In this document: positions 1,154 through 14,846 of the stretch, piece after piece
How positions within the stretch are numbered: the stretch's first letter is position 1
Layout of the letters: each line of letters opens with the position of its first letter
Source: a bacterium
Lineage (GTDB): Bacteria > UBA9089 > JASEIO01
Reading direction: 5' to 3'
Assembly (NCBI GenBank): GCA_030017475.1
Contig: JASEIO010000037.1
Coordinates: forward strand, 1-15,045
Length of the DNA stretch: 15,045 nucleotides
Position numbers and translations under genes: made by a program
The notes under the pieces: generated by a model
Told to the model about the DNA's origin: nothing
The model's database searches: none
What the model saw: only the letters and a program-made list of their open reading frames with translations

Positions 1154-2554
1154 ATGATGGATGATTTAGTTAGTTCTTTAAGGGGTAAATTAGAGATTGC
1201 AGAAGATGGTAGACTTAAAATTATAGATGAACAAAGATTCAAGGAAGAACTATTGGGCGATTTGGTTTACAATTCAAACTTTAGTAAGGATCAGGATGTA
1301 GTTATGGCCTCTCGCTGGATAATCTATGAGGCAGCCCGAGAATCAGGGATTATCCCATCCTCTATCCAGTCATTGTATGAATATAAAGGAAAGGGCGGAT
1401 TTTCTAATAGAACTGTCCCAGCAATTAATGTCCGGGGATTAACCTATGATGTAAGTCGGGCTGTTATTCGAACTGCTATAAAGAATAATTCTTCAGCATT
1501 TATCTTTGAACTTGCTCCAACAGAAATGAAGTATACAGATCAGTCTCCATCGGAATATGCTACTTCGGTTATTGCTGCGTCCCTCAGGGAAGGTTACAGT
1601 GGGCCACTTTTTCTCCAGGTAGATCATCTTAGGGTTTCCGAAAAGAGGTACGAGGAAGATAAAGAAGAGGAATTAGAAAATATCAAACGTGTGATTAGAG
1701 AGGCAATATTGGCAGGGTTCTATAACATAGATTTAGATACATCTACTCTTGTTACACTCTCTAAACCCACGGTAAGAGAACAACAGCGGAGGAATTTTGA
1801 AGTAGCAGCGGAATTGGCAGTCTATATTAGGGAACTTGAACCTGAAGGAATAACCATCTCATTAGGAGGGGAAATTGGAGAGATTGGAGGGAAGAATAGT
1901 ACCGAAGAGGAATTAAGAGAGTATCTAAATGGATTTGCGGAGGAGATTGGGAAGGTTTCACTTAATATTAAAGGATTGCGTAAAGTTGCTATTCAAACAG
2001 GAACAACCCATGGAGGCGTCCCGCTACCTGACGGAACTATTGCCAAGGTAAAACTCGATTTTGAGACACTTGAGAGGTTATCTACAGTGGCTCGGGAAGA
2101 ATATGGATTAGCAGGTTGTGTTCAGCATGGTGCGTCGACCCTACCTGCGGAAGCCTTCCATCGTTTTCCAGAAACTGGTACAGCTGAGGTACATTTAGCT
2201 ACCGAGTTTCAGAATATGATCTATGACTCAGAGTTTTTCCCAAGCGATCTCCGCTCAAGAATCTATAACTATCTTCGCCGGGAACATAAATCGGAACGAA
2301 AGGAAGGCCAAACCGATGAACAGTTTATTTATAAAACAAGGAAGGAAGGCTTTGGTCCTTTTAAAAAAGAGATCTGGGATATACCAGAGGAATCCAGGGT
2401 TGAAATCGGACGGAGATTAGAAGATAAATTTGACTTCCTTTTCAAAAAGCTAAATGTATGTAATACCTATGACATAGTTAAAAAAGAGATAAGACTTGTA
2501 CCTATCTCAAGACCAATTCCAGAAGCATTAAAGAAGAGAATTAGTAATGATTAA
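1154..2554 (+). CDS. fba: Class II fructose-1,6-bisphosphate aldolase, long form
   Basis: The protein should cleave fructose 1,6-bisphosphate to dihydroxyacetone phosphate and glyceraldehyde 3-phosphate, with a divalent metal as cofactor. Class II landmarks occur in order: QVDHLR with catalytic Asp157 and metal ligand His158; LGGEIGEIGG with Glu240; GTTHGG with His286; VQHGAS with His325; and a phosphate-binding stretch near 347-355. At 466 residues it is well above the usual 285-360. The extra length lies in an N-terminal segment of about 90 residues and a charged C-terminal tail of about 100 residues. Start: ATG 1154, ten bases after AAAAAGGAGG; ATG 1157 is also possible. It follows the phosphofructokinase in one operon. 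The tail is of unknown function, and a related ketose-bisphosphate substrate such as tagatose bisphosphate cannot be excluded. Confidence 0.85.
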   Translation: MMDDLVSSLRGKLEIAEDGRLKIIDEQRFKEELLGDLVYNSNFSKDQDVVMASRWIIYEAARESGIIPSSIQSLYEYKGKGGFSNRTVPAINVRGLTYDVSRAVIRTAIKNNSSAFIFELAPTEMKYTDQSPSEYATSVIAASLREGYSGPLFLQVDHLRVSEKRYEEDKEEELENIKRVIREAILAGFYNIDLDTSTLVTLSKPTVREQQRRNFEVAAELAVYIRELEPEGITISLGGEIGEIGGKNSTEEELREYLNGFAEEIGKVSLNIKGLRKVAIQTGTTHGGVPLPDGTIAKVKLDFETLERLSTVAREEYGLAGCVQHGASTLPAEAFHRFPETGTAEVHLATEFQNMIYDSEFFPSDLRSRIYNYLRREHKSERKEGQTDEQFIYKTRKEGFGPFKKEIWDIPEESRVEIGRRLEDKFDFLFKKLNVCNTYDIVKKEIRLVPISRPIPEALKKRISND

Positions 2555-3129: not shown

Positions 3130-3408
3130 ATGTTAACATTAAGCGTGATTATCCCAACATATAATCGGAAAGAGGTCTTAGAGAGATCTCTCTCTGCTCT
3201 TTTCGATCAAACATATCCAAAGGCTGATTATGAGATTATTATAATTAATGATGGTTCAACTGACGGAACTGAAAAGTTGATAGAAAAGATTCAACTCGAC
3301 TCACCGGTTGCTTTAAAGTGTTTTAAACAAAAAAAACAAAGGACCAGCAGCAGCAAGGAATGTAGGAATAAGGAATGCAAAAGGAAAAATACTTCTATTT
3401 ATTGGTGA
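3130..3408 (+). pseudogene. Family 2 glycosyltransferase, N-terminal fragment (frameshifted)
   Basis: This fragment opens with the GT-A fold start LSVIIPTYNRKEVLERSL (4-21) and the nucleotide-binding NDGSTDG (40-46), typical of family 2 enzymes that transfer sugars from nucleotide donors. The homologous frame breaks at an A8 tract (3329-3336). After it this frame gives meaningless residues to the stop at 3408, while the next frame continues GPAAARNVGIRNAKGKILLF, the expected family 2 continuation. Seven A residues instead of eight would restore the protein. The ATG at 3130 fits the domain start, but its Shine-Dalgarno site is poor; GGGGAGG is about 22 bases upstream. The break could be a real mutation, a sequencing error, or be rescued by slippage. 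Confidence 0.8.
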
Positions 3409-3430
3409 TGATATTATTGCCACTTCCAAT

Positions 3431-4156
3431 TTGATAGAAGAGCATATAAACTATCATAATCGTTATCCAGAGGAAAATAAGGCGGTTTTAGGATATGTAA
3501 CCTGGCATCCAGATTTAGATGTAACGCCTTTTATGTGGTGGCTTGAGAATGGAGGACCTCAATTTTCTTTTAATACCATAATTGAGGAAAAGAAGGAAGA
3601 TTGTGAAATTTTCTACACATCTAATATTTCTTTAAAACACCAATTTTTATTATCAAACAGGCTACTATTTGATGAAGATTTTTTATACGCGAGTCATGAG
3701 GATACAGAGTTTTGGTATAGGCTTAAAGAACTGAATCTAAAAGTCATATATAATCCGAATGCAGTAGGATATCATATGCATCAAGTAGTGATGAGTGAGT
3801 ATTGCAGAAATAGACAGATTAAAGAAGGGATTTCAAGGATACTCTTGTATACAAAAAACTTTAGATTTAGACAATATTTTGAGGTAGATATTGGGTATCA
3901 TGAAGGGGTTTTCTGTTCAGAGTATCTTTTACAAGATATGGAAAACTTACTCGAATTTGTTGAAAAAGCAGAGTTGTTTCTATACATGGACTCTTTTAAA
4001 CGTTATTTTTTCTATGAACTTCTTGTAAATTTTTACTCCCAAAAAGGCGCCCTTATTAAACTTAAAGAAATAATTCCAAGTTTTGATTTCATAAAAGAAA
4101 AATGTTTTAAGGCTATTAAGGCAAAAAAAAGAGAAAGATTACGAAGGCACGATTAG
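3431..4156 (+). pseudogene. Family 2 glycosyltransferase, central and C-terminal fragment (frameshifted)
   Basis: This reading frame is open back to the A8 tract at 3329-3336. There it reads KGPAAARNVGIRNAKGKILL and then GDDI, the acidic metal-binding equivalent of DXD. Downstream come a conserved acidic segment (SHEDTEFWYRLKE) and YNPNAVGYHMHQ, as in the acceptor-side half of GT2 enzymes. The first possible start in frame is a TTG at 3431, which is too late to make an active enzyme alone. The frame ends at 4156 shortly after a second A8 tract (4123-4130). Removing one A there joins it to the downstream TPR frame. The original gene was therefore probably a single GT2-TPR protein of about 590 residues spanning 3130-4904. 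Confidence 0.78.
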
Positions 4157-5796: not shown

Positions 5797-6894
5797 TTAC
5801 CTCACTCTTTCGTCAAGCAAGTGGCCTAAGTGGGTGTTTGACATAGGACTCCAGCCAAATACTCTTTCCCATACTTCCCGGGTTTCCATACACAAATAGA
5901 CAAAGATCCCGGGGTTGTAACTTCTAATAAATTTGAGTAATTTCCGATACATCTCTACTCTAATTGGTTTGAAATATCGTAACTTAGAATCAAGTCCAGG
6001 GAATAACTCTTCGTATATCAATTTGCAATGAGGGAATCTCTCTTTGATAATCGGCTTTAAGTTCGGCATAAAACGCAAGGCACCTAAGCTTATCCAAACT
6101 ATCCTTCCTGGGTCAATCCTTTCGGAAAGGGCTTTGACAGTTTCATAGTATCCTTCCTCCCACCCGTGATAGTAAATCAGTGGATCAAAGTGAAAACCTA
6201 ACCTATAACCCAATTCTTGACAAATCCTTGCTGCCTCTATTCTATCTTTGAGGGTAGAGGTATTTGGCTCCTCATTTTGAATTATTCTTTGAGGATTTAG
6301 GGAGAAAGAGACAACTGTCCTTTCTTTGTGATCCAATCTGTATAGGTTTGAGATAGAATCGGTCTTTGTCTTTAGTTCTAAGATTGTGTTATTCCACTTT
6401 GCAAAGAATGGAACTAAAATCTTACTAAAATTGGTTATACCATCAAGTGCTAGGCTATCAGTCAACTCTCCTGTTCCGATGCGATAGAACTTACCATTTT
6501 TCCTTGAGAATACCTCTTCTAATCCCTTGAGAAACTTTTCTATATTTGCAAAGACCACAAGGAGTGGATTATTTAGTAGATAGCTCTGGAGGACGCAATA
6601 TGTACAATCAAGGTAGCAATTTGTGGCTATATTTAGCACATAATAATTGCAGCAAATGTGATACTTAGTACCTGGGCACTTCTTAAGAACCTTTCCTTTA
6701 TATTTGGTGACAAAGATCCTTCTTTTACCTTTGGAAATTGCATCCTTAGCTAAAGCGGCTTTCTTAATTAATATCTTTGGGTTTTCAACATATTCAATAG
6801 GAACGGATGAGAATTTGCATAATATATTGGCTGTGATTGATTCGTCTTTTACAGATCTTTCAACATAAATTCTCTCTGGACAGAAGTTTAACAT
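5797..6894 (-). CDS. Spore photoproduct lyase-like (SplB family) radical SAM protein
   Basis: This is a 365-residue radical SAM enzyme. Cys93, Cys97 and Cys100 (NCYLDCTYC) form the CX3CX2C motif of the SPL family, which binds a 4Fe-4S cluster and cleaves S-adenosylmethionine. Family hallmarks follow: YRIGTGELTDSLALD (137-151), FSLNPQRI, and a C-terminal FGWSPMSNTHLGHLLDE typical of the broader SPL-like clade. In true spore photoproduct lyase the hydrogen-donor Cys (Cys141 in Bacillus subtilis) lies in a segment aligning with residues 137-151; no cysteine is there, and none occurs between 101 and about 225. The substrate may therefore differ. The ATG is five bases after the stop of the ParB-like gene, so translation is probably coupled. 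Thymine-dimer repair would be speculative. Confidence 0.85.
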   Translation of the reverse strand: MLNFCPERIYVERSVKDESITANILCKFSSVPIEYVENPKILIKKAALAKDAISKGKRRIFVTKYKGKVLKKCPGTKYHICCNYYVLNIATNCYLDCTYCVLQSYLLNNPLLVVFANIEKFLKGLEEVFSRKNGKFYRIGTGELTDSLALDGITNFSKILVPFFAKWNNTILELKTKTDSISNLYRLDHKERTVVSFSLNPQRIIQNEEPNTSTLKDRIEAARICQELGYRLGFHFDPLIYYHGWEEGYYETVKALSERIDPGRIVWISLGALRFMPNLKPIIKERFPHCKLIYEELFPGLDSKLRYFKPIRVEMYRKLLKFIRSYNPGIFVYLCMETREVWERVFGWSPMSNTHLGHLLDERVR

Positions 6895-6898
6895 AATT

Positions 6899-7864
6899 TC
6901 AAATATCTAACCCACTGAGAGAATTTAAAAGCGAAGCTAGCTCTTTACTCTCACTGACCTCTTTTAAGTTCGATAGGATCTTCTTCAGTTCAAAAGTATC
7001 TTTGAAACTAAATTCAACCCGGATCCCTTCTCCCTCAAAATTAGCTGGAGGAAGAAGATGTATCCGAGGAAGCAATCCCAATTTCATCTTTCTATTCTGG
7101 AAATTAGATTCAGCCTGGGATAATAGAGGGTACCTCCTCTTTCTTAAGTGAGTCCTCAATTTCTCTGTCTTTTCTCTTGGAGTTAAAACCTTCGAGTTAA
7201 GCAATTCTTTGATCTCTACACCCTTTGTTATTTTAAAAATGGGGATTTCTTCTCTCTTTGCTATCTCTTCTAAGTAAGTTATAAACTCAAGTTGTAAATT
7301 ACTACTCAGGGCGAGCTTAGAAACCAATTGAAATATTTCGCTTCTATCCCGCAAAGAAAATTCTAATAATTTATTAGCGATTGAAATGGACGTTTTTCCA
7401 TTAACTATAGATTTTTTAATACAATCATCAAGCTTTACTATCTTTCTATATTTATCAAAAACCTTCCTGTGGGAGGGGAGATCAATCAGGGGAAGATACC
7501 TCTCTATTATCTCCTCCTCTTTCACCCCAAAATCAAGTAGTTTATTTATAACAAGGGATTTCTCAACCTCATTAAACTTACGGGTACAAACATTTTCATA
7601 GAGATTCAAAAAGAATGCATCTATGTCTTCTCCATAAAATATATAGACACAAACTTCTTTCTTCTTTAACCTCTTTAAGGCAGAAACTCTCTTATAACCA
7701 CTTATAATCTGAAAACTCTCTTTATCCTCCCTTAAAATAGGTGGATTGATGCATCCAATCATCTTGATAGAACTAATCAATCTGCTGAGGTCTTCTCCAA
7801 AAGTAACCACAAAACGCTTATCAAGAAGATCTATCCTATCAATTGAAATCTTCTTAAGTATCAT
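6899..7864 (-). CDS. ParB-like N-terminal domain protein
   Basis: The protein has 321 residues from ATG 7864. Residues 1-75 match the ParB/sulfiredoxin-type fold: MILKKISIDRIDL, IKMIGCINPPILRED (33-47) and SGYKRVSALKRL (55-66), the place of the GERRxRA box of ParB CTPases but with diverged residues. A helical, basic region (100-200) follows, as in the ParB DNA-binding domain, then an unassigned C terminus. There is no ParA partner, so chromosome partition is unlikely; it may guide the SPL-like enzyme or regulate the cluster. Start: ATG 7864 lies one base after the glycosyltransferase stop and fits the family N terminus. ATG 7909 has a better ribosome site (GAGGG) and ATG 7960 is also in frame, but both overlap the upstream gene. 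Confidence 0.75.
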   Translation of the reverse strand: MILKKISIDRIDLLDKRFVVTFGEDLSRLISSIKMIGCINPPILREDKESFQIISGYKRVSALKRLKKKEVCVYIFYGEDIDAFFLNLYENVCTRKFNEVEKSLVINKLLDFGVKEEEIIERYLPLIDLPSHRKVFDKYRKIVKLDDCIKKSIVNGKTSISIANKLLEFSLRDRSEIFQLVSKLALSSNLQLEFITYLEEIAKREEIPIFKITKGVEIKELLNSKVLTPREKTEKLRTHLRKRRYPLLSQAESNFQNRKMKLGLLPRIHLLPPANFEGEGIRVEFSFKDTFELKKILSNLKEVSESKELASLLNSLSGLDI

Positions 7865-7865
7865 C

Positions 7866-8687
7866 CTACTCGTATCTTTGAGGTATTTGCTCGTATCTTT
7901 TTGCCTCATCGATCTTCCCTCTTTTAAGACACCCTTTAGCCAAAATTTGACATTTTTCACGCATGTGCTTTAAGACCAACCTTTTTTCTTCTTTAGTTAA
8001 GTTACAATTATCCATAATCTTCTCTAATGCCTTAACCCTGAATCTGTCCATTCCCCAGAACTTCTTGCTCAGTTGATCAGGATGTCCACCACGTTTAATT
8101 ATAAGTTGCTTCTCAATTAGAAAGATTGGATATCTCTTAGCCAATCGAATCCCAAAGTCATAGTCCTCACAAGCAGGTAGACTCTCATCAAATACACCAA
8201 TCTGTCTGAAGACCTCTCTTTTTATCATTACTGAAGATGGACTGATGAGGCAAAGAGGTAAGACATGCTCAAATATCCAGCCAGAATACTTTTTATGTCG
8301 TTCGCGCCTGTTAACTCTTATCCCTCTTCTTATCCAAATCTCTTCAGTATAGGTAACCTTAGCTCGAGGATTATTTTCCATAAAATCAACTTGAATCCCT
8401 AACTTATCTTTCATCCACAAATCGTCTGAGTCCAAAAAAGCTATGTACTCTCCCCGGGATTTACTTATGCCTAAGTTTCTAGCCGCACTTACGCCTTTGT
8501 TAGGTTGAAAAAGATACTTTACTTTATCCAGGAAAGGTTTGAGGGTCTCTCTTGTCTCGTCAGTTGAACCATCATCGACTATAATTAGCTCGAAATCAGA
8601 ATAGGTTTGAGAGAGGACTGAGCGAACAGCTTCTACTATATATTTGGCTCGGTTAAAAGTAGGAATGATGACACTTATCTTACACAT
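7866..8687 (-). CDS. Family 2 glycosyltransferase
   Basis: This 273-residue cytoplasmic enzyme of the GT-A fold probably transfers a sugar from a nucleotide donor to a surface glycan or other acceptor. It shows ISVIIPTFNRAKYIVEAV (4-21), the donor-binding VDDGSTDET (37-45), NKGVSAARNLGI (63-74), the metal-binding DSDD (86-89), and the acidic ACEDYDFGIRLAKR (172-185). No membrane segments are seen, and the C-terminal 60 residues are charged and helical. It is the first gene of the minus-strand cluster with the ParB-like and SPL-like genes; a 142-base gap precedes it, with only weak promoter-like sequence. A direct repeat of 11 bases (7869-7879 and 7890-7900) duplicates seven residues at the C terminus (RYEQIPQRYE). 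Acceptor and sugar cannot be told. Confidence 0.85.
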   Translation of the reverse strand: MCKISVIIPTFNRAKYIVEAVRSVLSQTYSDFELIIVDDGSTDETRETLKPFLDKVKYLFQPNKGVSAARNLGISKSRGEYIAFLDSDDLWMKDKLGIQVDFMENNPRAKVTYTEEIWIRRGIRVNRRERHKKYSGWIFEHVLPLCLISPSSVMIKREVFRQIGVFDESLPACEDYDFGIRLAKRYPIFLIEKQLIIKRGGHPDQLSKKFWGMDRFRVKALEKIMDNCNLTKEEKRLVLKHMREKCQILAKGCLKRGKIDEAKRYEQIPQRYE

Positions 8688-9969: not shown

Positions 9970-10635
9970 CTACTTCTTTCTCTCAATATGGTGTCTTATA
10001 TCCTTTCCTAAAACCATATATATGACATCTTCACATATATTAGTGGCGTGATCTGCAATTCGCTCAATATTTCGAGAAATAAGGACTAAACAAAGTGCTT
10101 GCCGAGTAGTAGTTGGGTCTGACACCACATAGGTTAAAAGCTCACGAAATATTTGGTCCCTTAATCCATCTACCTCATCATCTCGCTTGAGTACTGAGCG
10201 AGCCAATTCTGCATCCTTTTTGACAAATGCCTCAAGACTATCTCTAACCATCTGTTTTGCTATTTCTGCCATTCGAGGAGTATCAATCAAGGGTTTTACC
10301 TCTGGATAGCTTAAGTATATCTCGGTATTTTCTGAGATATTGACAGATTGATCTCCTATTCGTTCTAACTCACTATTTATCTTCATTGCTCCGGTGATAA
10401 ATCTTAAGTCTTTAGCTGTTGGTTGTCGTAAAGCAATCAGCTTTATGCACAATTCATCTACATCAATATGGAGCATATTTATCTCATCCTCATACTTAAA
10501 TACCTCTTGTGCTAATCTCTTATTCCTTTTGATTAATGCATGAATAGCCAAATCTATCATCTTCTCTACTATCCCACTCATATGAAGTAATCTTTCCTTT
10601 AATCTCTTTAACTCCTCATCAAATAATCTTCCCAT
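9970..10635 (-). CDS. phoU: Phosphate transport regulator PhoU
   Basis: PhoU is a cytoplasmic metal-binding helical-bundle protein that restrains the Pst transporter and phosphate signalling when phosphate is plentiful. The 221-residue sequence has two homologous three-helix halves, each with the hallmark E-R-I-x-D metal motif: ERIGDQSVNISE (91-102) and ERIADHATNICED (191-203). The start ATG at 10635 follows GAAAGGAAA closely, 36 bases after the stop of the second pstB. It is the last gene of the canonical pst order. No PhoR or PhoB kinase-regulator pair is in the window. Confidence 0.95.
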   Translation of the reverse strand: MGRLFDEELKRLKERLLHMSGIVEKMIDLAIHALIKRNKRLAQEVFKYEDEINMLHIDVDELCIKLIALRQPTAKDLRFITGAMKINSELERIGDQSVNISENTEIYLSYPEVKPLIDTPRMAEIAKQMVRDSLEAFVKKDAELARSVLKRDDEVDGLRDQIFRELLTYVVSDPTTTRQALCLVLISRNIERIADHATNICEDVIYMVLGKDIRHHIERKK

Positions 10636-10671: not shown

Positions 10672-11427
10672 TCACCCGAATCTCCCAGTGATATAGTCTT
10701 CGGTTCTTTTATCTTTAGGACTGGTAAATATCTTGGATGTTTGGTTAAACTCAACAAGCTCCCCTAATAACATATAACCAGAATAATCTGATACACGTGC
10801 TGCTTGCTGCATATTATGTGTGACAATAACAATAGTATAATTCTCTTTTAATGAAACCAACAACTCCTCAATCCGTAAAGTAGTAATTGGGTCAAGTGCA
10901 GAGCAAGGTTCATCCAGTAAGATAATTTCTGAGCCTATTGCAAGTACCCGTGCAATGCAAAGTCGTTGTTGATAATCCAAAGATAGGCTTAATGCAGATC
11001 TTTTCAACTTATCCTTTAAATCATCCCAGAGCCATGTTGCAATTAGGCTCTCCTCTACTATTTTGTCTAATTCAGCCTTCTTTTTAGTTCCATGGACCAC
11101 CGGTCCATAAGCTACATTATCATAGACTGATAATGGGAAACAATTTGGACGCTGAAAGACCATACCAACCTTTTTCCGTAGTTCAATTATATCGATTTGA
11201 GCATCATAGATATCTTTCCCATCAATTAAAACCTTGCCTTCTAACCTGGTTCCATCAATCAATTCATTTGTTCGATTAATAGTCCGTAATAAAGTCGATT
11301 TACCACATCCTGAAGGTCCAATTAAGGCAGTAATTGCATTTCCCACAATATTCATATTTACATCCTTTAATGCCATAAAATTACCATAATAAAATGTTAA
11401 ATTATTCAATTCAATCTTAGATGCCAT
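10672..11427 (-). CDS. pstB: Phosphate ABC transporter ATP-binding protein PstB, second copy, degenerate signature
   Basis: This is one of two tandem ATPase subunits driving phosphate import through PstCA. From ATG 11427 it has 251 residues. The Walker A GPSGCGKS (37-44), Q-loop Gln92, Walker B LLDE (Asp172, Glu173) and switch His204 (VTHN) are all canonical. The ABC signature is not: where PstB has LSGGQ this protein has LSLDY (148-152), followed by QQRL. Three neighbouring codons differ, so a sequencing error is unlikely. A TTG at 11436 would add three residues and overlap the upstream gene; the ATG leaves one base after its stop and aligns without gaps to the other PstB. It most probably works as a heterodimer with that copy. 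Confidence 0.93.
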
Positions 11428-11428
11428 A

Positions 11429-12184
11429 TTAACCAAATCTTCCTGAGATATAGTCTTCAGTTCTTTTATCTTTAGGCACAGTAAAGATCTGCTCTACTTG
11501 ACCATACTCTACCAATTCCCCCATTAAAAAGAATGCAACCCTATCTGCTACCCTGGCTGCTTGTTTTGTATTATTAGTAACAAGTACAATGGTATATTCT
11601 TTCTTTAATTCATGAAGTGCCTCCTCTATCTTGGCAGTAGAAATCGGGTCAAGTCCAGAGCAGGGTTCATCTAATAGGATAACTTCAGGCTCTAAAGCCA
11701 ATGTTCTTGCAATACAAAGTCGCTGTTGTTGTCCACCAGAGAGTTTAAGAGCAGATTCATTGAGTCTATCCTTTACTTCATCCCATAAAAATGCTGCCCT
11801 CAAGCTCTTCTCCACCAATTCTGTAAGTTCAGCCTTAGATGTAATACCGTATAATTTAGGTCCGTACGCTATATTTTCAAATATAGTTCTTGGAAGTGGT
11901 ACTGGGAGCGCAAATACCATTCCTACCTTTCGCCGAAGCCATGGAAGTGAAATATCCTCTTTGTAGATATCTTTACCATCCAGATACACTTCACCTTTTA
12001 GCTTTGCATAAGGGATTAACTCATTTAATCTATTTAAGGTTCGTAAAAAAGTAGTCTTACCCGAATTTGCAGGACCAATGATCGATAAGATCTCCTTAGT
12101 TTTAATCCTTAGATTGATAGACTTTAAAGCCTGAAGTGTATCAAAAAAAAGGTCAAGATTTTTAACTATGATTTTATCCCCCAA
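11429..12184 (-). CDS. pstB: Phosphate ABC transporter ATP-binding protein PstB, first copy, altered Q- and H-loops
   Basis: The second ATPase subunit has 251 residues from TTG 12184, the start that best suits the GAGGAG site eight bases upstream; TTG 12190 would be only two bases away. The ABC signature LSGGQQQR (148-155) and Walker B LLDE (Asp172, Glu173) are canonical. Other positions are not: Walker A is GPANSGKT (37-44) instead of GPSGCGKS, the Q-loop position is Ala92 (MVFALP for MVFQxP), and the switch histidine is Asn204 (VTNN for VTHN). These losses complement those in the other PstB. It lies between pstA and the second pstB, 18 bases after pstA, and the context leaves little doubt about its substrate. 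Asymmetric heterodimerisation is inferred. Confidence 0.93.
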
Positions 12185-12202
12185 TGTCAACTCTCCTCAA
12201 TT

Positions 12203-13039
12203 TTAAGAAAATTTAGCCATAAACCGATGCATAAGCCAGTAGGAAACTAAATTAATAAATAAAATAGCAATTATAAGGATAGCGGCAGTGCCGTATGCGT
12301 TTTCCATCGATATACCTTCGCGTGCTAAGATATAGAAATGTACTGCCATAGTTCTACAGGAATCAAATAAAGAGGCTGGAACTCGCAAGGATGAACCAGC
12401 AGTAAATATCACGGCTGCGGTCTCTCCTACACTTCTACCTATCCCTAATATTACCCCAGTGACTATGCCTGGTAATGCACTAGGAAGCACAACCCTTGTA
12501 ATGGTTTGCCATTTAGTTCCTCCAAGCGAAAGACTTACCTCACGATATGAATAAGGTATAGCTCTAATTGCCTCCTCAGAAGTACGGATGATGGTAGGTA
12601 GAATCATAAAGGCCAATGTAAGTCCTCCAGAAAGAATCGACCAGCCAAATCCAAGATAAATAACAAAGAGTACAAATCCAAACAGACCAAATATGATAGA
12701 AGGGACTCCTGCTAAACACTCGGTGCCAAATCTAATTATTCTTGTCAATCTCCCTTCTCTTTTATACTCGGTTAGATAGATTGCAGTCCCTACACCAAGA
12801 GGGGTAGCTATTATGATTGCTATTAATGGAAGAAGTATTGTTCCAATGATGCATGGGAATATTCCACCTGCTCGACCAAGTTCTTTAGGTGAAGTGAGGA
12901 GAAATTCTAAATCTATTACTGAAAGTCCATTCTTTAGGATATAGAAGATAATGAATAATAGAATCAATACAGTAAAGGCTGTACTTATAAATAATATCTT
13001 CTTTACAATCTGTTCAGTAAAGGCAGGCTTGATCTTCAC
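12203..13039 (-). CDS. pstA: Phosphate ABC transporter permease PstA
   Basis: This 278-residue inner-membrane permease has about six hydrophobic segments, beginning with residues 14-35. The cytoplasmic coupling loop YREVSLSLGGTKWQTITRVV (165-184), followed by LPSALPGIVTGVILGIGRSV and GETAAVIFTAG, is the EAA-type loop that contacts PstB. CLAGVPSIIFGLFGFV (108-123) is also typical of phosphate permeases. The GTG start at 13039 is one base after the pstC stop (TAG-G-GTG), so translation is probably coupled. With PstC it forms the phosphate channel. Assignment as PstA rather than PstC rests on order and overall sequence. Confidence 0.93.
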   Translation of the reverse strand: MKIKPAFTEQIVKKILFISTAFTVLILLFIIFYILKNGLSVIDLEFLLTSPKELGRAGGIFPCIIGTILLPLIAIIIATPLGVGTAIYLTEYKREGRLTRIIRFGTECLAGVPSIIFGLFGFVLFVIYLGFGWSILSGGLTLAFMILPTIIRTSEEAIRAIPYSYREVSLSLGGTKWQTITRVVLPSALPGIVTGVILGIGRSVGETAAVIFTAGSSLRVPASLFDSCRTMAVHFYILAREGISMENAYGTAAILIIAILFINLVSYWLMHRFMAKFS

Positions 13040-13040
13040 C

Positions 13041-13895
13041 CTACTTGGTTATTACCTTACGCTTTGCAATAAGATTTGCAATTATGTTTAATAGCATAAT
13101 TACTATAAATAATACAATACCTGTAGCAAATAACGCCTGACGATGTTCTCCAGTAGCAAAATTCATCTCTAATGCTATATTTGTAGTAAGAGTCCTTACA
13201 GGGTCGAGTATAGAATCAGGGATTATAACCGCATTTCCTGCTATCATAATCACTGCCATAGTTTCTCCTACTGCCCTTCCTACACCAAGGATAATCCCTG
13301 CAATGATCCCAGAGCGTGCAGCGGGTAGTACTACCATCTTTACAGTCTGCCATCGAGTAGCCCCTAATGCCAATGATCCCTCTCGATATGAATAAGGTAC
13401 TGCTTGAAGTGAATCGATCGATATGCTTGTAATGGTAGGAAGAATCATTATCCCAAGAATGATTGAGGCAGCTAATATGCAAGGGCCAGGGCCACCTAAA
13501 TAATTACGAATCAATGGAAATAGTATCACCATACCCATAAATCCATAAACAACAGATGGTATCCCAGCTAATAATTCAATTGTGGGTTTGAGAATTTTAC
13601 CTATTTTAGGGGTGGAAAATTCAGCCAAGTATATAGCGCATGCAAGACTTAATGGAAGGCTAAACAGAAGAGCACCAGCGGTTATCCATATCGAGCCCAT
13701 AATCATAGGAAATATCCCAAACTGCTCTTCTATGGGTGACCAATTGACGCCACAAATAAAATCCTTTATTCCTACTTTTAAGATAACAGGTAGGCCTTCT
13801 TTTAAGATAAATACCCCTATTAGAATAAGAATAGCAATTGTAGAAAAGGCAGTAATTAATAATCCAGATTGGATAAGTCGTTCATTATATTTCAT
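13041..13895 (-). CDS. pstC: Phosphate ABC transporter permease PstC
   Basis: This 284-residue membrane protein has about six hydrophobic segments. Its features are the N-terminal helix at 11-31, ELLAGIPSVVYGFMGMVILF (107-126), the coupling loop YREGSLALGATRWQTVKMVV (170-189), and GRAVGETMAVIMIAGN (206-221), whose Arg and Glu are conserved in phosphate permeases. ATG 13895 starts it; the nearest purine-rich site, GAGGGA, is rather far upstream. It lies 26 bases after pstS and one base before pstA. Partner of PstA in the phosphate-specific channel. Confidence 0.93.
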   Translation of the reverse strand: MKYNERLIQSGLLITAFSTIAILILIGVFILKEGLPVILKVGIKDFICGVNWSPIEEQFGIFPMIMGSIWITAGALLFSLPLSLACAIYLAEFSTPKIGKILKPTIELLAGIPSVVYGFMGMVILFPLIRNYLGGPGPCILAASIILGIMILPTITSISIDSLQAVPYSYREGSLALGATRWQTVKMVVLPAARSGIIAGIILGVGRAVGETMAVIMIAGNAVIIPDSILDPVRTLTTNIALEMNFATGEHRQALFATGIVLFIVIMLLNIIANLIAKRKVITK

Positions 13896-13921: not shown

Positions 13922-14713
13922 TTATCTAATCGCAACCAATCCATAGTCTGATATTAATTGTTGAGCCTGATTGGAAAGAATAAATTCTATAAATTCTTTT
14001 ATCCCTCCAACAGGTTCCCCTTTAGTAAGTAAGAAAATAGGTCTTGTGAGTTTATACTTACCTTCTCTAATATTTTGTAAGGTAGGAGCAACACCATCTA
14101 TTTTTAAGGTCTTTACCTTTGGTGTTACAAACCCATAGGAGATATAACCAATAGAATTCAGGTCATTTTCTACCATTATTCTTACAGCACCAGTTGAATC
14201 TTGTATAAGCGCTTCTGGACTGACTTTAGTATCCTTTAGGACTAATTCTTCAAAAGATGCCCGTGTACCTGATCCTTCCTCACGAGAGATAACAGTAATA
14301 GGTCCATCCTCACCATCTAATTCGCTCCAATTTTTTAACCTACCACTAAATATCTGTTGTATTTGTTTGGTAGAAAGCCCATCAATTTTATTATCAGGAT
14401 GAACAATCAATACTACCCCATCCTTAGCTACTACTACACTATTTAACCCTTCAGCCTCTTTTGGCAATGAGACCATATCTGCCATACCAATTTGAGCTAC
14501 ACCACTTTGTACAGACTGAATTCCTACCGCAGAGCCACCTCCTTGAACATTAATTCGGATATCTTTATTCTTTGCCATGTATTCTTCAGCAAGTTTCTCT
14601 GCAAATGGTTGAAAAGCAGTAGAACCAGCCATATTTATAGTCTCAACTTTAGTCCTCGTACAACCTATCATCATATAGGAAATTAGTGTAAGAGTAATTA
14701 TAAATCTATACAC
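13922..14713 (-). CDS. pstS: Phosphate-binding lipoprotein PstS
   Basis: PstS binds phosphate outside the membrane and delivers it to PstCA. From GTG 14713 it has 263 residues. A short signal peptide with hydrophobic core FIITLTLISYMM ends in the lipobox MIGC, so Cys18 should be lipidated. The mature protein shows family motifs: INMAGSTAFQPFAEKLAEEY, the glycine-rich NVQGGGSAVGIQSV, GVAQIGMAD, and SREEGSGTRASFEELV, which carries phosphate-contacting Ser, Gly and Arg residues. The GTG is nine bases from AGGGGG; a TTG at 14719 would be only about three away. First gene of the pst operon. The 180-base leader upstream contains a terminator-like hairpin, and no clear Pho box was found. Confidence 0.93.
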   Translation of the reverse strand: MYRFIITLTLISYMMIGCTRTKVETINMAGSTAFQPFAEKLAEEYMAKNKDIRINVQGGGSAVGIQSVQSGVAQIGMADMVSLPKEAEGLNSVVVAKDGVVLIVHPDNKIDGLSTKQIQQIFSGRLKNWSELDGEDGPITVISREEGSGTRASFEELVLKDTKVSPEALIQDSTGAVRIMVENDLNSIGYISYGFVTPKVKTLKIDGVAPTLQNIREGKYKLTRPIFLLTKGEPVGGIKEFIEFILSNQAQQLISDYGLVAIR

Positions 14714-14846
14714 CAGCAAATACCCCCTTTACCCAGTTACCCGCAGAATTCCTCTGCTTGCCCATGACTGAGTAAATCCAGACTTGCATAGTAAAAAATT
14801 TTCTGGTAAGGGATTTTGATTTTCAGGTTATTATCGATTGATAAAC

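Follow-up and report, generated by a model that had tools for sequence, protein, structure and literature searches.

The window (the whole stretch of DNA analysed, 15,045 nucleotides in length) contains a complete pst operon on the minus strand, in the order pstS-pstC-pstA-pstB(A)-pstB(B)-phoU, which is common to most relatives. The genes, with the profile matched and the score obtained, are as follows:

13922..14719 (-), pstS, phosphate-binding protein (TIGR02136, 236 bits)
13041..13895 (-), pstC, permease (TIGR02138, 294 bits)
12203..13039 (-), pstA, permease (TIGR00974, 293 bits)
11429..12190 (-), pstB-A, with Ala at the Q-loop position, Asn in place of the switch His, and LSGGQ and the catalytic Glu intact (TIGR00972, 355 bits)
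10672..11436 (-), pstB-B, with Walker A, Q-loop, His and the catalytic Glu intact and LSLDY replacing LSGGQ (TIGR00972, 375 bits)
9970..10635 (-), phoU (TIGR02135, 215 bits)

The two pstB genes are separate ORFs. They share 8 nucleotides where pstB-A ends and the pstB-B ORF starts; the latter begins with TTG, with an ATG three codons inside. The whole-protein scores of both PstB-A and PstB-B lie over the curated PstB cut-off of 343 bits (343.2) for TIGR00972.

Several other features of the window were recorded. At 80-1108 there is a phosphofructokinase gene, and beside it, at 1154-2554 (+), an ORF whose 466-amino-acid product is distantly related to class II fructose-bisphosphate aldolases (45 bits, a long way under the cut-offs) and may be an unusual aldolase. 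At 3130-4156 (+), a family 2 glycosyltransferase match is confined to the first ORF (3130-3408); the ORF at 3431-4156, in another frame, has no match, which points to a frameshift in a single gene or to a misassembly. At 5797-7960 (-), a radical SAM protein similar to spore photoproduct lyase (Pfam SPL, 130 bits) adjoins a second protein, for which a ParB N-terminal match (24 bits) falls below threshold and whose reading frame overlaps that of a glycosyltransferase.

The ATPase motifs are distributed unevenly between the two PstB proteins:

12053..12076 (-), PstB-A Walker A, GPANSGKT, with Lys and Thr kept
11909..11911 (-), PstB-A Q-loop position, Ala94 (Gln in all B and canonical PstB proteins)
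11729..11743 (-), PstB-A signature, LSGGQ (invariant, 146 of 146 A proteins)
11573..11575 (-), PstB-A switch position, Asn206 (His in canonical PstB)
11296..11319 (-), PstB-B Walker A, GPSGCGKS, canonical
11152..11154 (-), PstB-B Q-loop Gln95, kept
10972..10986 (-), PstB-B degenerate signature, LSLDY (second Gly changed to Asp or Glu in 89% of B proteins)
10816..10818 (-), PstB-B switch His207, kept

As can be seen, each protein departs from the canonical motifs where the other retains them. PstB-A reads LLDEP at Walker B and VTNNT (His to Asn) at the switch, and the Walker B Asp-Glu is kept in both copies. Given the kept Lys and Thr, the Walker A of PstB-A is expected to bind ATP. An extra change specific to A adjoins Walker B: Gly179 (11654-11656, minus strand) lies in a D-loop that reads SGLDP in 97% of A proteins versus SALDP in 94% of canonical PstB proteins. 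An earlier sequence-only reading of this DNA had reported the same division of motifs (GPANSGKT, Ala, LSGGQ and Asn in the first copy; a normal Walker A, Gln, His and LSLDY in the second), and re-reading of the ORFs confirmed it. The numbering used there (92, 148-152, 173 and 204) is consistent with starts placed a few codons downstream of those of both ORFs. The catalytic Glu, which it placed in both copies, is indeed kept in every A and B protein surveyed below.

PstB-A and PstB-B share family, fold and partners (PstS, PstC, PstA and PhoU) with canonical E. coli PstB, as seen in PstSCAB (cryo-EM structures 9k3x and 9k3s). However, the E. coli transporter uses one PstB with complete motifs twice, whereas the window encodes two, whose losses complement each other. 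As far as the motifs tell, neither copy is expected to furnish both sites of a canonical homodimer, each being without motifs that the other keeps. Tandem pstB genes are in themselves known, as the earlier reading had said: two adjacent pstB genes lie in the pst operon of Firmicutes (PstB1/PstB2 of E. faecalis, PMC12096839; PstBA/PstBB of B. subtilis, PMC11466899). In contrast to the pair in the window, the motifs are normal in both E. faecalis copies, and the pairs of Fictibacillus are canonical too. Likewise, both copies carry all ATPase motifs in control pairs L113/L114, and not in the window pair.

We surveyed species-representative genomes together with whole-genome searches of the source phylum and five other phyla (about 1,020 genomes and 348 loci), assigning PstB proteins to classes by their Q-loop, signature and switch residue. 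Type A was defined by loss of the Q-loop Gln and switch His with LSGGQ kept, and type B by retention of Gln and His with the signature lost. The distinct proteins comprised 146 of type A, about 150 of type B, about 124 canonical, 10 A-variants that keep the His and one other, at locus L128. LSGGQ and the switch Asn occur together in all 146 A proteins, and Ala occupies the Q-loop position in 97% of them, with Ser or Pro in the rest. The roughly 150 B proteins all keep Gln and His and lack the consensus signature; the Glu or Asp substitution of the second Gly is found in forms of which LSLEQ, LPLDQ, LSGEQ and LSEEM are the commonest.

A/B pairs turned up in over a dozen bacterial phyla, most of the genomes being metagenome assemblies. 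Twelve of the 19 genomes searched in the small source phylum have an A gene, and pairs were found in 10 of the 12 A-bearing loci; for Omnitrophota the figure is 55 of 56 A-bearing loci (56 of 145 genomes sampled). Pairs were also found at 14 loci in the phylum holding Syntrophus, at eight each in Planctomycetota and Verrucomicrobiota, and at four in Spirochaetota. By public record labels, which may be wrong, they occur further in Desantisbacteria, Hydrogenedentota, Kiritimatiellota, Lentisphaerota, Elusimicrobia, Armatimonadota, WOR-3 and Acidobacteria, and, with the same caution about metagenome labels, in single Bacteroidota- and Ignavibacteria-labelled genomes. For PstB-A, the nearest relative (L039, G011:C14) carries the label Marinifilum sp.; since its genome groups with the source phylum, this label is probably wrong.

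The sequence-only reading had proposed to see whether losses in homologous pairs are complementary or random. Among 148 non-redundant adjacent pstB pairs they were complementary, never random: 137 consist of A followed by B, and there was no A-A, B-B or A-canonical pair. The other 11 are two of an A-variant followed by B, two with a truncated or broken B, six canonical-canonical (from Fictibacillus and Chloroflexota) and one canonical-B, the last (L347) being the end of a canonical operon that abuts an A/B operon. If 140 A and 140 B genes were dealt at random, the probability of obtaining only mixed pairs would be about 1e-41, a figure that ignores common descent.

The A-variants at L221 and L231, orphans at their own loci, each have a B partner at another place in their genome, and most other orphans lie at contig ends. 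In a metagenome-assembled genome of the source phylum (L120:1371-2126, genome G005), pstC-pstA-pstB-A is followed by neither pstB-B nor phoU, and no B was found elsewhere in that assembly, which reflects either a real loss or an assembly gap. In a Spirochaetaceae metagenome genome (L352:2616-2957, the same as L090:6780-7860), the pstB-B frame is broken past the Q-loop while pstB-A is intact; another, canonical-scoring PstB is present there. At L128:2331-4757 (genome G057), an A/B pair is accompanied 0.9 kb downstream by a third, odd degenerate PstB with GPSNSGKT, a kept Q-loop Gln, LSNGQ and VTNKR. We also looked for A-B fusions, which would be natural proof of pairing, and no ORF with two PstB domains was present among the loci tested.

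Chloroflexota and the phylum of genome G093 contain A-variants (INTERMEDIATES) in which the Q-loop Gln is lost (Ala or Asp) and the His is kept (VPHSV, VPHNI). Their B partners read LSLGQ, LTLGQ, LALGQ or LSPGQ, that is, the first signature Gly is lost and the second is kept. The states of the two proteins match throughout: in 138 of 138 pairs an A with Asn goes with a B without the second Gly, and in 8 of 8 pairs, with two more genomes on follow-up, an A with His goes with a B that retains it. The two positions belong to different proteins and to the same predicted composite site. Since a single deep branch separates the two states, the match probably represents one or two events rather than 146; it agrees with what a shared site predicts, though largely as one evolutionary transition. 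In these lineages the operon often runs pstB-B - pstS - pstC - pstA - pstB-A - phoU, or B is divergent; thus, the pairing of A with B is independent of adjacency.

In a tree built without the motif columns, 38 sampled A proteins including the variants fell on one side of a branch with SH-aLRT 96, from a quick search in which support was mostly moderate. The His-keeping variants were sister to the Asn forms. The B proteins formed two or a few groups beside or around some canonical PstB proteins and were less clearly one clade. Pairwise distances among A and among B proteins covary (Mantel r 0.71; the largest of 999 permutations gave 0.09), and in 11 close genome pairs dN/dS was 0.03-0.16 for A and 0.04-0.22 for B. 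It thus follows from the single A clade, the covarying distances and the low dN/dS that the pair is old and co-inherited and that both members are constrained. The intermediates and the matched A and B trees lend further support to the complementary-loss interpretation from which we started. Decay to a pseudogene, or drift, is ruled out by dN/dS values of 0.03-0.22 together with cross-phylum invariance.

The source genome (1.64 Mb, a draft in 111 contigs) is 98.5% complete with 0.18% contamination. No third PstB was found in it, the next ABC ATPase scoring 171 bits, about 180 bits lower. An additional complete pstB elsewhere, which the sequence-only reading had named as a finding that would speak against it, is thus absent from this assembly, and with it the candidate explanation that an extra canonical PstB covers for the A/B pair. 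Profile searches of the same genome gave no match to the PHO4/Pit and Na/Pi-cotransporter families. Since neither these nor another PstB were matched, the pst operon is the only recognisable phosphate uptake system, and, to the extent that the assembly is complete, it presumably has to function for cell growth. The A/B pair is likewise the sole PstB set in about 19 other genomes; many relatives have a third, canonical PstB.

In ABC dimers, each ATP site is made of the Walker A and B motifs, Q-loop and H-loop of one subunit and the signature of the partner (PMC7756269). When the surveyed motifs are placed according to this general composition, all deviations are predicted to fall in one composite site and the other site to be fully consensus, in agreement with the layout first proposed. 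PstB-A and PstB-B thus very probably constitute an anciently duplicated obligate heterodimeric ATPase of the Pst importer, with one consensus and one degenerate site. Site 1, combining the core of B with the LSGGQ of A, would have consensus elements throughout, hydrolyse ATP and drive the PstC/PstA channel. Site 2, combining the core of A (without Gln and His) with the LSLDY of B, would bind ATP with little or no hydrolysis, perhaps serving as a sensor or clamp. For site 2, ATP binding with inefficient turnover is most likely, since the Walker Lys and the Glu are kept and the Gln, His and signature are lost. Dimer formation, the choice of hydrolysing site and any energetic or regulatory benefit are deduced here from motifs; lower ATP cost, slower release or signalling to PhoU are speculations as to what a degenerate site might bring.

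The pair was modelled as a single A-linker-B chain derived from L038, with the stop read through (TAA as Ser), purely as a modelling device. Both halves folded (mean pLDDT 85) and their relative placement was not fixed (pTM 0.57). The A half lay within 1.1 Å of E. coli PstB; the whole chain differed by 8-9 Å rmsd from the fused M. tuberculosis DppD/OppD, a comparison in which the mutual placement of the halves in the model is not confident.

Could a homodimer of a single PstB drive transport, the other copy being a regulatory or decaying paralogue? B, whose catalytic core is intact, would be the likeliest candidate. Signatures vary in some ABC proteins, and the tandem PstBs of E. faecalis are unequal, pstB2 being required and pstB1 accessory (PMC12096839). 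However, the motifs of both those proteins are normal, whereas in the pairs described here the LSGGQ of A and the Gln and His of B are invariant exactly where the partner has lost them, and both genes are under purifying selection. A homodimer of either A or B is predicted to contain two impaired sites, and since the single signature mutation Q160K abolishes phosphate uptake by E. coli PstB (PMC5775613), a B homodimer should fail. We therefore regard transport by one copy alone as quite unlikely. That the pattern arises from errors of annotation, assembly or alignment, or from chance drift in one lineage, is scarcely credible: the source genome is a draft in many contigs, but the pattern is found in independent assemblies from more than a dozen phyla, with intact frames and low dN/dS, and this recurrence already refutes such an explanation.

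A heterodimer may also form in which both sites hydrolyse ATP, with Asn standing in for His and the altered signature being a tuned variant. The catalytic Glu and the Walker Lys are kept in both proteins, and replacement of the switch His by Asn or Gln is tolerated in MRP1 (PMC7756269), so that the change from His to Asn alone need not abolish function and our claim rests on the combined loss of the Q-loop Gln, the His and the signature. The losses of Gln, His and both signature glycines coincide at one and the same predicted site, and the acidic exchange in LSLEQ and LSLDY of PstB-B resembles the degenerate signature LNVEQ of Pdr5 (PMC7756269). Two active sites are accordingly an unlikely arrangement, and a heterodimer with one consensus and one degenerate site remains the preferred reading.

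Such asymmetry is known from heterodimeric systems (TM287/288, BmrCD, TAP, MRP1, CFTR and Pdr5; PMC7756269), in which one site is consensus and one degenerate and the elements are split between two NBDs. The window pair is similar in that two different NBDs are encoded together and, judged by their motifs, all losses fall in one composite site. Unlike PstB-A/B, these systems are exporters (CFTR a channel), their NBDs are usually fused to membrane domains and their catalytic Glu is often replaced; PstB-A and PstB-B belong to an importer, are separate NBDs and keep the Glu while Gln and His are lost. Fused importer ATPases of the RbsA/NupO type (PMC11466899) also have one degenerate ATP site, but there the NBDs lie in one chain, the second Walker A lysine is lost and the system is not Pst, whereas PstB-A and PstB-B are separate chains with both lysines kept. 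Tandem pstB genes of Firmicutes, degenerate-site exporter heterodimers and fused RbsA-type importers are thus already known. We found no description of a degenerate or heterodimeric PstB, that is, of a complementary pair of this kind, in a literature search that was thin on subscription papers and is hence weak evidence; the authors of the E. faecalis work stated that no other study of the contributions of tandem pstB genes existed (PMC12096839).

Asymmetry through a degenerate site is a classic problem in ABC exporters, whose ATP sites and membrane domains co-evolved. PstB-A/B brings the problem to an importer that is small, well understood and built with its ATPase subunits on separate chains, for which more than 100 natural pairs, intermediates and canonical controls are at hand, and makes two questions testable: why one broken ATP site is repeatedly kept, and in what order the losses occurred. 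It is conceivable, though somewhat short of probable, that the pair marks a widespread, vertically maintained class of Pst transporter in mostly uncultured, often anaerobic bacteria. One ATP would be hydrolysed per cycle at the single consensus site and the second would be structural or sensory, so that each dimer cycle would nominally consume half the ATP, or PhoU/PhoR would receive an asymmetric ATP-occupancy signal. In many uncultured phyla, pstB counts and annotations as "PstB" would conceal another stoichiometry, and phosphate uptake may come at another ATP cost.
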